From Polyangium aurulentum (GTDB lineage Bacteria; Myxococcota_A; Polyangia; Polyangiales; Polyangiaceae), in contig CAMCKZ010000026.1 of assembly GCA_945875545.1 (NCBI GenBank), positions 1 to 36,449 on the forward strand: a stretch of DNA of 36,449 bases, in the 5' to 3' direction. Below, piece after piece: positions 13,460-26,522 of this stretch. Both the position numbers and the translations under genes were made by a program. The notes beneath the pieces are model-generated. The model was not told the origin of the DNA and ran no database searches. It saw only the letters and a program-made list of their open reading frames with translations. Position 1 is the first letter of the stretch. The number at the start of each line of letters is the position of its first letter.

Positions 13460-13895
13460 GAACACAGAGGATCATGAGCCGAGTCCTGTTCCGCTGCGAA
13501 ATCGCTCGCGCAACGGTGACGATCATTCCTCTAGGCCCCCGGTTACCCGAGGGCTCGAGCAGCCTACCCACAAGCTCGAACGGGCCGTTCTCAAACGCTT
13601 GCCTACGTGACTTTGCTTCCAATGGGGTTTGCCTTGCCGTTCCCGTTGCCGGGCCCGCGGTGAGCTTTTACCTCACCCTTTCACCCTTACCGCGCGTCAA
13701 CGAGTTTCACGTGAAGCGCGGCGGTCTTCTCTCTGTTGCACTTTCCTCGGCCTTGCGGCCACCGGGCGTTACCCGGCATTGCGCCCTGCGAAGCTCGGAC
13801 TTTCCTCCCGCGGCAGAAGCCTGCCGCCGGCGAACGTCGATCCCCATGTTCGCCGAGGAGATGAGCACGACAGGGCGATCGCCGCAAGGCACCGC
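13460..13895 (-). ncRNA. rnpB: RNase P RNA, type A
   Basis: This is the catalytic RNA that matures tRNA 5' ends with the RnpA protein. Read on the minus strand it shows, in order, the universally conserved blocks: GAGGAAAGTCCG (13807-13796), GTGCAACAGAGAG (near 13741-13729), GGTAAGGGTGAAAGGGTG and GGTAAAAGCTCACC (13692-13660), GGGTAGGCTGCTCGAGCC (about 13568-13551), AGAGGAATGATCGTCACC and the P4 3' strand ACAGGACTCGGCTC (13490-13477). GGCGATC at 13883-13877 can pair with GATCGTC near the 3' end as helix P2. The 3' end is fixed by the terminator at 13422-13458; the 5' end is approximate (13885-13920). A TAGAAT hexamer at 13947-13942 could be part of its promoter. The variable P12 hairpin carries a parS-like sequence. 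Confidence 0.95.
13703..13718. promoter_or_regulatory. parS-like 16-mer inside rnpB
   Basis: AGTTTCACGTGAAGCG matches the bacterial parS consensus (TGTTTCACGTGAAACA) at 13 of 16 positions, including twelve in a row (GTTTCACGTGAA). It lies in the variable P12 arm of the RNase P RNA, about 10 kb from parB. ParB would be expected to tolerate some outer mismatches, but binding is unproven. Confidence 0.45.
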
Positions 13896-23575: not shown

Positions 23576-24487
23576 TTAGCCTTGTTCCACTCCGAGCTTT
23601 TGGAGGAGTCGGTCCAGGGCATCTAGGCTCTCGTACGGGATAAGCACCGCGCCCTTTGTGGCGCTCTTGGCCTTTAGTTCGACCCTCATGCCGAGGGTGC
23701 GCGTGAGGCGCAGTTCGAGGTCGCGCACAGCGGCTGTTTTGTCGCTTTTTTCCGCCGCTTCATCCCGGTCTACTTTTGTAGAACCTCCGGTTTTTGCCAG
23801 GACTTCCGTCGCTCGAACGCTCAACTTTTCTGCGATGACCCTGTCCGCCAAACGCTCAATCGCCGCGTCGTCTTTTGCCATCAAAAGTGCCCGGGCATGC
23901 CCCTCGGAAAGACGCAATTCGACAACGTGATCGCGCACGCGCGACGGCAGTTTCAAGAGCCGCAGACCATTGGCAATCGTTGAACGATCCTTGCCAAGCC
24001 GCGTGGCCAGCGCCTCTTGGGTGTAGGTGTATTCTGCAATAAGCCGTTGGCACGCCTCGGCGAATTCGATGGCGGAAAGGTCTTCGCGCTGGGCGTTTTC
24101 AACGAGCGCGGCCTCGAAGGCGCTCTTCTCGTCGGCCACGCGCACCACGACCGGAACCTCACGAAGTCCAGCGATTTGTGCGGCGCGCCACCGACGCTCG
24201 CCCGCGACGATCACAAATTTGTCGACGCCGTTGGCCGCACGCCGCACGACCAGCGGCTCGATGATTCCGTGTTCACGAATCGACTGCGCGAGCTCTTCGA
24301 GAGGCACCTTCGCGAAGTGGCGGCGCGGCTGCCCGACCATCGGTTCCATCTTTTCGAGGGCACATGCGAAGGCCCACTTCTCCGCCGGCGGCGCGGAAGA
24401 AATGGCCACGGGCGCCACCGCTGCGCCGGTGGGAATGAGGGCTTCGAGACCGCGCCCGAGGCCCCGTCTTTTCGGATCGATCGTCAT
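23576..24487 (-). CDS. parB: Chromosome-partitioning protein ParB
   Basis: ParB binds parS, loads CTP and slides along DNA to build the nucleoprotein complex moved by ParA. The 303-residue sequence has an N-terminal ParA-stimulating segment (KRRGLGRGLEALIP, 6-19), the CTP-binding box GERRWRA (96-102), ENAQREDL (130-137), a helix-turn-helix (about 155-178, TQEALATRLGKDRSTIANGL) and a C-terminal dimer domain. The start overlaps the parA stop by four bases. The usual IPxNPxQPR segment reads EPMVGQPRRHF. The stop is 35 bases from the convergent kinase-like gene. A TGYA-N3-TRCA copy lies inside (24028). Confidence 0.97.
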   Translation of the reverse strand: MTIDPKRRGLGRGLEALIPTGAAVAPVAISSAPPAEKWAFACALEKMEPMVGQPRRHFAKVPLEELAQSIREHGIIEPLVVRRAANGVDKFVIVAGERRWRAAQIAGLREVPVVVRVADEKSAFEAALVENAQREDLSAIEFAEACQRLIAEYTYTQEALATRLGKDRSTIANGLRLLKLPSRVRDHVVELRLSEGHARALLMAKDDAAIERLADRVIAEKLSVRATEVLAKTGGSTKVDRDEAAEKSDKTAAVRDLELRLTRTLGMRVELKAKSATKGAVLIPYESLDALDRLLQKLGVEQG

Positions 24488-25278
24488 GACTTTTTCTCGG
24501 CGCTCAGTTCGCTGGCGAGCAGTTGATAGGCCACAGCCCCCTTCGATGAGGGGTCGTAGAGGGTCACGGGTTTGCCGTGGGATGGGGCTTCCGAGAGGCG
24601 AACATTGCGCGGAATTACCGCATCAAACACGAAAAAATGCTTGCGAACTTCTGCCGCTACTTGATGGGCCAGGTTGTTTCGCGCATCGAACATCGTGAGC
24701 ACGAGACCCTTCACACCGAGGGTCGGGTGGAGGCCCGCCCGCACCCGCTCAATCGTGGCCATCAGGTGCGTGAGCCCTTCGAGCGCGTAGTACTCACACT
24801 GCAAAGGAACGAGCACTTCGTCGGCGGCGACCAAGGCGTTGACCGTCAAGAGACCGAGCGATGGCGGGCAGTCCACAAGCACGTCGTCGAAGGGCATGTC
24901 TGTGAGGAGTACATCTATTGCCGCCCGCAGCCGGCTCGCGCGATCGGGTTCATCGACGAGTTCGATTTCCGCGGCCACGAGGTCTTGCGTCGCCGGTGCC
25001 AAGAAAAGTCCGTCGACCGGGCAGGGCAAAAGCACGTCGCGGAGCGCGGCTTCCCCAATCAATACGTTGTAAATACTAGAGCCCACAGTTCGCGTCGGAT
25101 GACCGAGCCCGCTTGAGGCATTTCCCTGGGGATCCATATCGATCAAGAGAACGCGTCGGCCCCGTTGCGCCAAGGCTGCGGCCACATTTACGGCGGTGGT
25201 CGTCTTGCCAACGCCGCCCTTTTGATTGACGACCGCTAGGCGATTGAACGGATTGGCGCTGCGCGTGCGATCAGTCAT
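24484..25278 (-). CDS. parA: Chromosome-partitioning ATPase ParA (Soj)
   Basis: ParA is a deviant-Walker ATPase that binds DNA non-specifically and pulls ParB-parS complexes. The sequence (264 residues from the ATG at 25278) has the deviant Walker A KGGVGKTT at 20-27, LLIDMDPQGNASSGL, DDVLVDCPPSLGLLTVNAL, and the Soj-like VLTMFDARNNLAHQV and IPRNVRLSEAPSHGKPV near the end. An upstream in-frame GTG at 25314 is less likely. It is followed by parB with a four-base overlap, as in most chromosomes. Because gidAB and oriC genes are not seen here, the distance to the origin is unknown. Confidence 0.97.
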   Translation of the reverse strand: MTDRTRSANPFNRLAVVNQKGGVGKTTTAVNVAAALAQRGRRVLLIDMDPQGNASSGLGHPTRTVGSSIYNVLIGEAALRDVLLPCPVDGLFLAPATQDLVAAEIELVDEPDRASRLRAAIDVLLTDMPFDDVLVDCPPSLGLLTVNALVAADEVLVPLQCEYYALEGLTHLMATIERVRAGLHPTLGVKGLVLTMFDARNNLAHQVAAEVRKHFFVFDAVIPRNVRLSEAPSHGKPVTLYDPSSKGAVAYQLLASELSAEKKS

Positions 25279-25531
25279 GAGCACCGTCCCATACCGATCA
25301 TACGCCGACCTCACAAGGCCGCCTCAGACTGGCTCGGCGCAACGCCCGCGCCGCCTTTCCTATCCGTCGGCGAAAAAAACGATCAAGCGCCGCGAATGAC
25401 CGGCCAATCGCATGCGCAAGAGAAAAACGACGCGGCTATTTTTTCCCTTGGCCCGGAGGCGTGTAGCGTCCTTCTTACGATGTAGGCAAACGTGACGAAC
25501 TGACGTCAATCTGCCTCCAAACGAAGGAATC

Positions 25532-25711
25532 ATGGCCGCACGAACAATGCCCTCCCTAACGGACAGTGATGATGACCGAAGCACGCGGATTCTCGCGGCT
25601 TTTTGGGGCGATGGCCCCGGCGAGGCGCACCTCGGCACGGTGTTGCCGATGCGGCCGCTGGCCCGTGCCGTTCGCCACGCAACGCCTGTTTTCGAGGAGT
25701 CGAGCCGATGA
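25532..25711 (+). CDS. Small protein of 59 residues, first gene of a two-gene unit
   Basis: An ORF from the ATG at 25532 (second ATG at 25547) encodes a 59-residue protein: MAARTMPSLTDSDDD, then RILAAFWGDGPGEAHLG, then an Arg/Ala-rich tail ending in FEESSR. Its TGA overlaps the ATG of the next small gene (ATGA), a typical coupling arrangement. AAGGAA lies just upstream, rather close. Third-position GC is high in its middle part. No similarity is recognised and no function is proposed. Confidence 0.6.
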   Translation: MAARTMPSLTDSDDDRSTRILAAFWGDGPGEAHLGTVLPMRPLARAVRHATPVFEESSR

Positions 25712-25869
25712 GTTTTCTGAAGAATTACCGCAGCATCGAAGAGTTTGAACGCGAAGAAATTCGCCCCAGTTTCCGGATCGGGTTTTCCCTCGACGACCTC
25801 GTGCAGGAGTCGATGATTGACGCCCGCGACATGCTCTTCGATGAGCTCTCCGACGACTTCGACGAGTAA
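25708..25869 (+). CDS. Small acidic protein of 53 residues
   Basis: It starts MSFLKNYRSIEEFEREE and ends in an acidic helix (MLFDELSDDFDE). A strong GAGGAG lies eight bases upstream of the ATG at 25708. A perfect intrinsic terminator follows 48 bases after the stop. It overlaps the preceding 59-residue gene by four bases. The sequence is compact, helical and charged, with no cysteine and no membrane segment. I do not recognise a family. The pairing of a basic-tailed and an acidic small protein resembles toxin-antitoxin or regulator pairs in layout only. Confidence 0.72.
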   Translation: MSFLKNYRSIEEFEREEIRPSFRIGFSLDDLVQESMIDARDMLFDELSDDFDE

Positions 25870-25917
25870 TTCGCCGCTCCACAAGACTTGCGTTCGCCGT
25901 CCTCCCCGGTGAACGCC

Positions 25918-25960
25918 GCGCCCGGATTCCACGCCTCGGAATCACGGGCGCAACTTTTTT
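25918..25960 (+). terminator. Intrinsic terminator of the small-protein unit
   Basis: GCGCCCG and GATTCC pair with GGAATC and CGGGCGC, separated by a single unpaired A on the right arm. A run of seven T follows (25954-25960). It is one of the strongest terminators in the window and lies between the two small genes and the thioesterase-like gene. Confidence 0.92.
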
Positions 25961-26021
25961 TGGACCACGAACGGCGCTTACCGACTGGTAGGCCGCATTG
26001 CGTCATGCTAGGGAATTCCCC

Positions 26022-26522
26022 ATGAATCTTGAGCAGAATCGCCTCTCTCGCAACGTCTCGCGCGTCAACCGCTTGCCTTCCGCGGTGGCCGTTTTCGCTC
26101 GTTCCCGAATGATGGGCAGCCTCGTCAAGTTCGTGGGAACGGCGGGCGTGCGTATTGAAGAGCTTACCGAAGAGCGCTGCGTCGCGACGTTGGCCAACGC
26201 GGCCAAGGTTCAGAACCACATCGGCGGTATTCACGCGGCCGCAATGGCGCTTTTGGCCGAGACCGCCACTGGTTTTGTCGTGGGCATGAACGTCCCCGAC
26301 GACCGCATTCCGGTCATCAAGCGAATGACTGTAAACTACATCAAACGCGCCAAGGGCGATCTGCGGGCGGAGGCCACGCTGTCATCGGAAGACCGCGAAC
26401 GCATGCGCACGGATGAAAAGGGAGAGGTTGCGGTGAACGTCGTCGTGACCGACGGTGCGAATGTGGAGCCAATACGCTGCGAAATGATCTGGGCCTGGAC
26501 GGGAAAGCGCCGCAGCCCTTGA
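26022..26522 (+). CDS. Hotdog-fold DUF4442 protein, probable thioesterase-like
   Basis: This 166-residue protein resembles the DUF4442 group of hotdog proteins, related to acyl-CoA thioesterases. It has the long helix HIGGIHAAAMALLAETATGFVVGM and the strands VIKRMTVNYIKRAKGDLRAEATL, and VAVNVVVTDGANVEPIRCEMIWAWTGKR. The family is thought to act on acyl thioesters; the substrate is not known. The ATG at 26022 has AGGGAA at good spacing. It is followed by tig after 34 bases and may share a transcript with it. A TGYA-N3-TRCA copy (26330) encodes TVNYI. Confidence 0.85.
   Translation: MNLEQNRLSRNVSRVNRLPSAVAVFARSRMMGSLVKFVGTAGVRIEELTEERCVATLANAAKVQNHIGGIHAAAMALLAETATGFVVGMNVPDDRIPVIKRMTVNYIKRAKGDLRAEATLSSEDRERMRTDEKGEVAVNVVVTDGANVEPIRCEMIWAWTGKRRSP

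Follow-up and report, generated by a model that had tools for sequence, protein, structure and literature searches.

In a window of 36,449 nucleotides from Polyangium aurulentum (the whole stretch of DNA that was analyzed), two tiny overlapping genes beside parAB belong to two unnamed microprotein families, and the hairpins that follow them constitute one unnamed RNA element; no paper that we found names any of the three. As judged by conservation, the second gene, ORF2, is a real protein family and the class-wide core of a micro-operon, to which some families add the first gene, ORF1, while a functional RNA probably lies at the 3' end. Taking these features together, we consider it somewhat probable that the micro-operon has a dual output, namely a small acidic protein and a 3'UTR-derived RNA carrying anti-Shine-Dalgarno-like C-rich loops.

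Results

The features of the locus are compiled in Table 1. An earlier note on this DNA had proposed a micro-operon of two tiny genes with its own terminator, a reading that our data support as right yet too modest. The two frames and their ATGA overlap (25708-25711) were confirmed, a GAGGAG ribosome-binding site does precede ORF2, and the pair is indeed divergent to parAB, with both parA and parB on the minus strand. The terminator, which had been called near-perfect, does comprise a hairpin and seven T, but its stem has a one-base asymmetry and is better described as good. A second hairpin (SL1) and a conserved upstream element go beyond what the note had described. Directly downstream of the micro-operon, a DUF4442 thioesterase-like gene (26022-26522, plus strand) is so placed in the same genus only; relatives outside the genus but in the same family have no DUF4442 gene there, and trigger factor, clpP and clpX come directly.

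Table 1. Positions of the micro-operon, its flanking elements and parAB within the window
Feature	Position	Strand	Description
parB	23576-24487	-	ORF, N-terminus LGRGLxALIP; tblastn orthologs adjoin parA in related loci
parA	24484-25278	-	Pfam AAA_31, E = 6.6e-55; divergent neighbor
Promoter-proximal conserved element	25464-25489	+	Core ATGTAGG at 25480-25486
ORF1	25532-25711	+	59 aa, ATG start, AAGGA upstream
ORF2	25708-25869	+	53 aa, ATG start, GAGGAG before
SL1 stem-loop	25890-25916	+	10-bp stem, loop UCCUCCC
SL2 (terminator stem)	25918-25951	+	Loop ACGCCUC; consensus YGCC(U)C
AAC-U7 tract 3' of SL2	25952-25961	+	Intrinsic terminator tail, from sequence

Spurious ORFs of 40-190 aa occur by the dozen in the region, and one of them, an antisense ORF of 190 aa, spans both genes. 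With so many spurious ORFs in GC-rich DNA, ORF length is no evidence here, and conservation was tested instead. The same abundance could be taken to mean that ORF1 and ORF2 are themselves chance ORFs, with their linkage to parAB reflecting mere inertia of gene order. We assign this explanation next to no probability, as it is refuted for coding by the profile conservation, purifying selection and cross-validated ORF1 described below, the upstream element is almost unique to the locus, and inertia is unlikely given the turnover of the other neighbors.

Searching with the 53-aa protein, we found ORF2 in 56 of the 59 nearest genomes, essentially as a single copy. In three genomes of the same family (G003, G024 and G036), the ORF2 match was absent or marginal and a ParA match was likewise lacking at the cut-off used; the region itself is probably missing from these assemblies. 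Profile searches yielded homologs across the class Polyangia (Myxococcota) in some 20 families (f1-f24 being our working family labels), the named loci being from Polyangiaceae, Sandaracinaceae and many 'Myxococcales' MAGs. The profiles reach f13, f14, f15, f18, f20, f21 and f22 beside parAB, and a member in f16, divergent from parA, was recognized by eye from the pattern Y-x-S-[FY]-x-E-F-x-R-E. The protein has a net charge of about -10, with a core of Y-x-S-x-x-E-F-E-R-E-E-[IL]-R-P...G-[FW]-S-L-D-D-L and an acidic tail; Y7, F13, R15, E17 and R19 (window ORF2 numbering) are invariant in a diverse alignment, and a pN/pS of 0.04-0.26 indicates strong purifying selection. Most members have an acidic C-terminus; that of f15 ends in RGRPRK, which is AT-hook-like. 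Searches for plasmid and viral relatives of ORF2 found none.

The relatives' frames ahead of ORF2 share an ORF1 core of [DE]-R-[IV]-[LM]-x(2,3)-F-[WF] ... V-[VI]-x-L. Two profile HMMs built from disjoint sets of loci each recovered the held-out upstream ORFs as their best six-frame hits, on the correct strand and in the correct place, directly upstream of ORF2. To pick the training loci, the frame ahead of ORF2 had first been screened with a loose motif; the HMM test itself is position-free, and several loci outside the motif-picked set were also recovered. ORF1 directly precedes ORF2 in 42 distinct loci of f1, f3 and f8 (loci are phylogenetically related, so that locus counts here and below are not independent events), and its pN/pS of 0.26-0.61 is consistent with a fast-evolving yet constrained protein. 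On the strength of these profiles, ORF1 is real, as an accessory limited to some families. Conservation of both frames and selection upon them, which the earlier note had listed as checks, thus came out positive by the profiles and pN/pS values of ORF2 and ORF1 alike. Its remark that neither protein belongs to a recognizable family also held, with profile searches of Pfam, NCBIfam, PHROG and PDB empty for ORF2 and for ORF1. AlphaFold models of both proteins are of low confidence (pLDDT 65 and 69) with two short helices each, suggesting, at that low confidence, short helices that might become folded once a partner is bound.

Linkage to parAB, another of the proposed checks, is conserved in nearly every relative sampled. 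When ORF2 alone was used to fetch loci, parA adjoined it unless the contig ended, nearly always in divergent orientation. A comparison of 34 loci from 19 families left parA, parB and their shadow frames as the only frames common to all; trigger factor/clpP/clpX, an M24 peptidase and folD are each common to only part of the families. In L023 and L074, ORF2 is flipped and co-directional with parAB, about 0.5 kb from parA, with linkage kept. A second, less stable neighbor is folD, which several families (f3, f5 and others; e.g., L022:6606-7463 and L034:6720-7781) carry downstream of parB. A search of the window for parS beside the micro-operon gave nothing better than 3 mismatches, at 13703; two tandem parS sites with 0 and 1 mismatch are found on another contig of the same genome (G000 C42:23326-23383).

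This linkage suggests a role for ORF2 in ParABS, and a tentative alternative to the dual output would stop there, with an operon for accessory proteins, ORF2 along with ORF1, that tune ParA or ParB; the hairpins would merely serve termination or mRNA stability. Such an operon would account for the retention of parAB in all 19 families while other neighbors change and for a linkage that outlasts inversion in L023 and L074, and it has a precedent in ParC of the Myxococcus plasmid pMF1, a small acidic protein partner that binds ParA and renders it soluble/active (PMC7843461). Like ORF2, ParC is small, acidic and encoded beside parA in a myxobacterial context; unlike ORF2, which is normally divergent and chromosomal, it is co-directional, directly upstream of parA in one operon, on a plasmid. 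Homology between the two was rejected (hhalign probability 0.4, with no sequence or profile similarity), and by analogy ParC may serve as a functional precedent. What speaks against an accessory operon at this level is that parAB also occurs without detected ORF2 (G105, f12 and f19); ORF2-like genes are also found off parAB in f17 (L133) and f24 (L130 and L132), and for both reasons ORF2 is not obligatory for ParABS. The f24 genes, from another class (L130:3937-4421 and L132:3901-4183), have the core SYEDFERxEY, and that of L130 lies between a ribbon-helix-helix-like gene and lipA.

Two small overlapping genes with their own terminator, the second encoding an acidic protein, also call to mind a toxin-antitoxin-like pair. 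We deem this very improbable, since ORF2 stands alone, without ORF1, in many families; it is vertical, single copy and near parAB in nearly every sampled relative rather than mobile; and profile searches gave no match to a toxin family.

Upstream of ORF2, the element CAGATGTAGG is almost unique to this locus genome-wide. Its family consensus is TA[CT]NGT-GTNNGC-AGATGTAGG, and the usual layout ahead of ORF2 reads T-run, TTGG, 17 nt, TA[CT]NGT, GTNNGC and AGATGTAGG. In 73 of 96 distinct loci, ATGTAG(G) occurs within the 480 nt that precede ORF2, vs. 0.005 expected per 480 nt (background of 12 ATGTAGG per 1.27 Mb), and six of the seven matches to TGTNNNCAGATGTAGG across 14 whole genomes are at this locus. 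In f14 and f16 the element is palindromic, CCTACATGTAGG or nearly so, and in the genus of the window it has drifted, the window itself reading TTACGATGTAGG. The element overlaps with the predicted start of the transcript, includes AUG-UAG and may act either as an operator on the DNA or at the RNA level; a -10/-35 pair can be assigned only weakly in the window. Eleven parAB loci were taken from genomes in which no parAB-linked ORF2 was detected; none of them has a copy upstream of parA, the sole ATGTAGG being situated inside parA (L151), and the element therefore belongs to the micro-operon and not to parAB.

The 3'UTR of the window folds into two hairpins (z = -4.87), the second being a GC-rich stem followed by a U-run, as in an intrinsic terminator (25918-25961). 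Across loci, the SL1 loop C(C)UCCC and the SL2 loop YGCC(U)C before the U-run stay constant while the stems change, and both loops are enriched about 70- to 200-fold here vs. control DNA. A plain terminator has an unconstrained loop, but of the 36 strong terminators after ORF2, 33 have a GCCY loop, vs. 1 of the 24 found at other places in these loci, and that one (L133) comes after the f17 ORF2-like gene that is not linked to parAB. By a looser count, hairpins with an SL2-type loop number 44 in 37.7 kb after ORF2 vs. 21 in 1252 kb. In L133 (3955-4210), the ORF2-like gene is followed by a YGCCUC hairpin and U-run away from parAB; gene and hairpin travel together in this locus.

In the ungapped set, 8 of 12 pairs of the SL2 stem change on both sides, a covariation reached by none of 500 shuffles; members of the set were chosen for pairing, which biases the percentage paired and, to a lesser degree, the covariation. 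One covariance model (R1), built on a gapped MAFFT alignment, kept only 3 pairs and was discarded in favor of one from the ungapped subset (R2). The covariance model had its best whole-genome hit at this locus in 9 of 15 genomes searched, and the high-scoring hits inspected elsewhere were without the loop. On the hairpin of the window itself, R2 scored 24.1 bits locally; in the whole-genome scan this hairpin was unranked because its stem is asymmetric.

Some Sandaracinaceae loci (L023, L026 and L074) contain two or three tandem hairpins with the SL2 loop and a U-run on the last only, an arrangement that argues for the loop mattering beyond termination. At the place of SL1, a CUCCC-loop hairpin is present in 19 of 38 loci vs. 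1 of 409 control windows, SL1 thus being recognized in half of the loci only. The f15 loci have no C-rich hairpins. In these loci (L118-L124; e.g., L120:3980-4165), a basic AT-hook-like tail stands in for the acidic one, as if protein tail and RNA element had been interchanged. Rfam gave no match for the window region and five related loci.

Because the loops of these hairpins are conserved in sequence, we surmise that the 3' end probably functions as an RNA in its own right, beyond terminating transcription. The accessory-operon alternative fares less well at this point: plain terminators need no conserved loops, so that the bias toward GCCY after ORF2 is left unexplained, as are the tandem hairpins without U-runs and the enrichment of SL1.

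Discussion

We favor the dual-output gene because the element shows hallmarks of C-rich-loop sRNAs: conserved loops on changing stems, a CUCCC complementary to the Shine-Dalgarno sequence and, in some loci, tandem copies. According to this proposal, the micro-operon would be ancestral in Polyangia and retained beside parAB. A strong divergent promoter, with the locus-specific element at the predicted transcript start, would drive a short mRNA, likely a single transcription unit, that encodes ORF2 and, in some families, a translationally coupled ORF1, and that ends in two C-rich-loop hairpins, the last being the terminator. The 3'UTR would most likely also serve as a regulatory RNA, either after release or in situ, and its C(C)UCCC and YGCC(U)C loops would pair in trans with G-rich ribosome-binding regions of target mRNAs. 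The ORF2 protein most likely binds a partner protein as a short helical adaptor, and on account of the linkage the first candidates for that partner are ParA and ParB. Local pairing of the SL2 loop with the starts of ORF1, ORF2, parA and parB was examined and rejected (longest run of 4.8-5.5 on average vs. 5.2 in random windows); as the loops show no preferential pairing with local start regions, RNA targets would be in trans. No trans target of the loops was found.

These features recall several known RNAs, none of them homologous to the element described here as far as we can tell. In Rhodobacter sphaeroides, the sRNAs CcsR1-4 are processed from the 3'UTR of the small-protein mRNA ccaF1 (PMC8625941). 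Here, too, a tiny gene is followed by C-rich-loop hairpins, and the two systems may work alike without being homologous. The two differ as follows: 1) no protein homology was detected, and ORF2, having no Pfam match, is not DUF1127; 2) the micro-operon has another loop motif, is linked to parAB and belongs to another phylum. The alpha-r14/cuckoo RNAs of Alphaproteobacteria have strictly conserved aSD loops on divergent stems (PMC10746234). Our element resembles them, again without homology, in its several hairpins with C-rich aSD-type loops that are kept while stems vary, but it has C(C)UCCC and YGCC(U)C loops in place of CCUCCUCCC, and it ends in a hairpin that terminates a coding operon. With UCCUCCC and ACGCCUC as loops, the window has neither the exact CCUCCUCCC motif nor a match to an Rfam family. 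The trans-encoded sRNA sX13 of Xanthomonas represses mRNAs that carry G-rich motifs close to their start codons by way of 4C/5C loops (PMC3771888); it shares stable stems with apical C-rich loops, and differs in being trans-encoded and in its 4C/5C loops, with no homology as far as Rfam shows. In kind, the 3' end conforms to aSD sRNAs, that is, at least two hairpins with C-rich unpaired loops and free stems, although its two loops differ in motif.

Conserved loops on free stems, together with the lack of a local base-pairing target, would equally be expected of a C-rich-loop RNA element bound by an RNA-binding regulator, with autoregulation of the micro-operon in place of a base-pairing sRNA. 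We think this rather unlikely, given that no candidate binding protein was identified and that the CUCCC loops match aSD loops known to act by base pairing (PMC10746234, PMC3771888).

Extending the dual-output proposal, we postulate, with appreciably less confidence, a class-wide ParABS-associated element in which a single divergent promoter region would drive parAB in one direction and, in the opposite direction, a microprotein acting on ParA or ParB together with a 3'UTR-derived aSD-type sRNA, thereby possibly coupling chromosome segregation to post-transcriptional control.

The segregation machinery of Polyangia, which are related to the myxobacteria, has been little studied compared with that of Myxococcus. 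Our findings anchor unnamed families to parAB, one of the most conserved loci of cell biology, and propose a concrete link between chromosome segregation and control by a small RNA or small protein in this class. They also indicate that the loop of a terminator can be more conserved than its stem, a signal that can be scanned for elsewhere. If our reading is true, the segregation locus of Polyangia would harbor a previously unknown dual-function RNA/protein gene.
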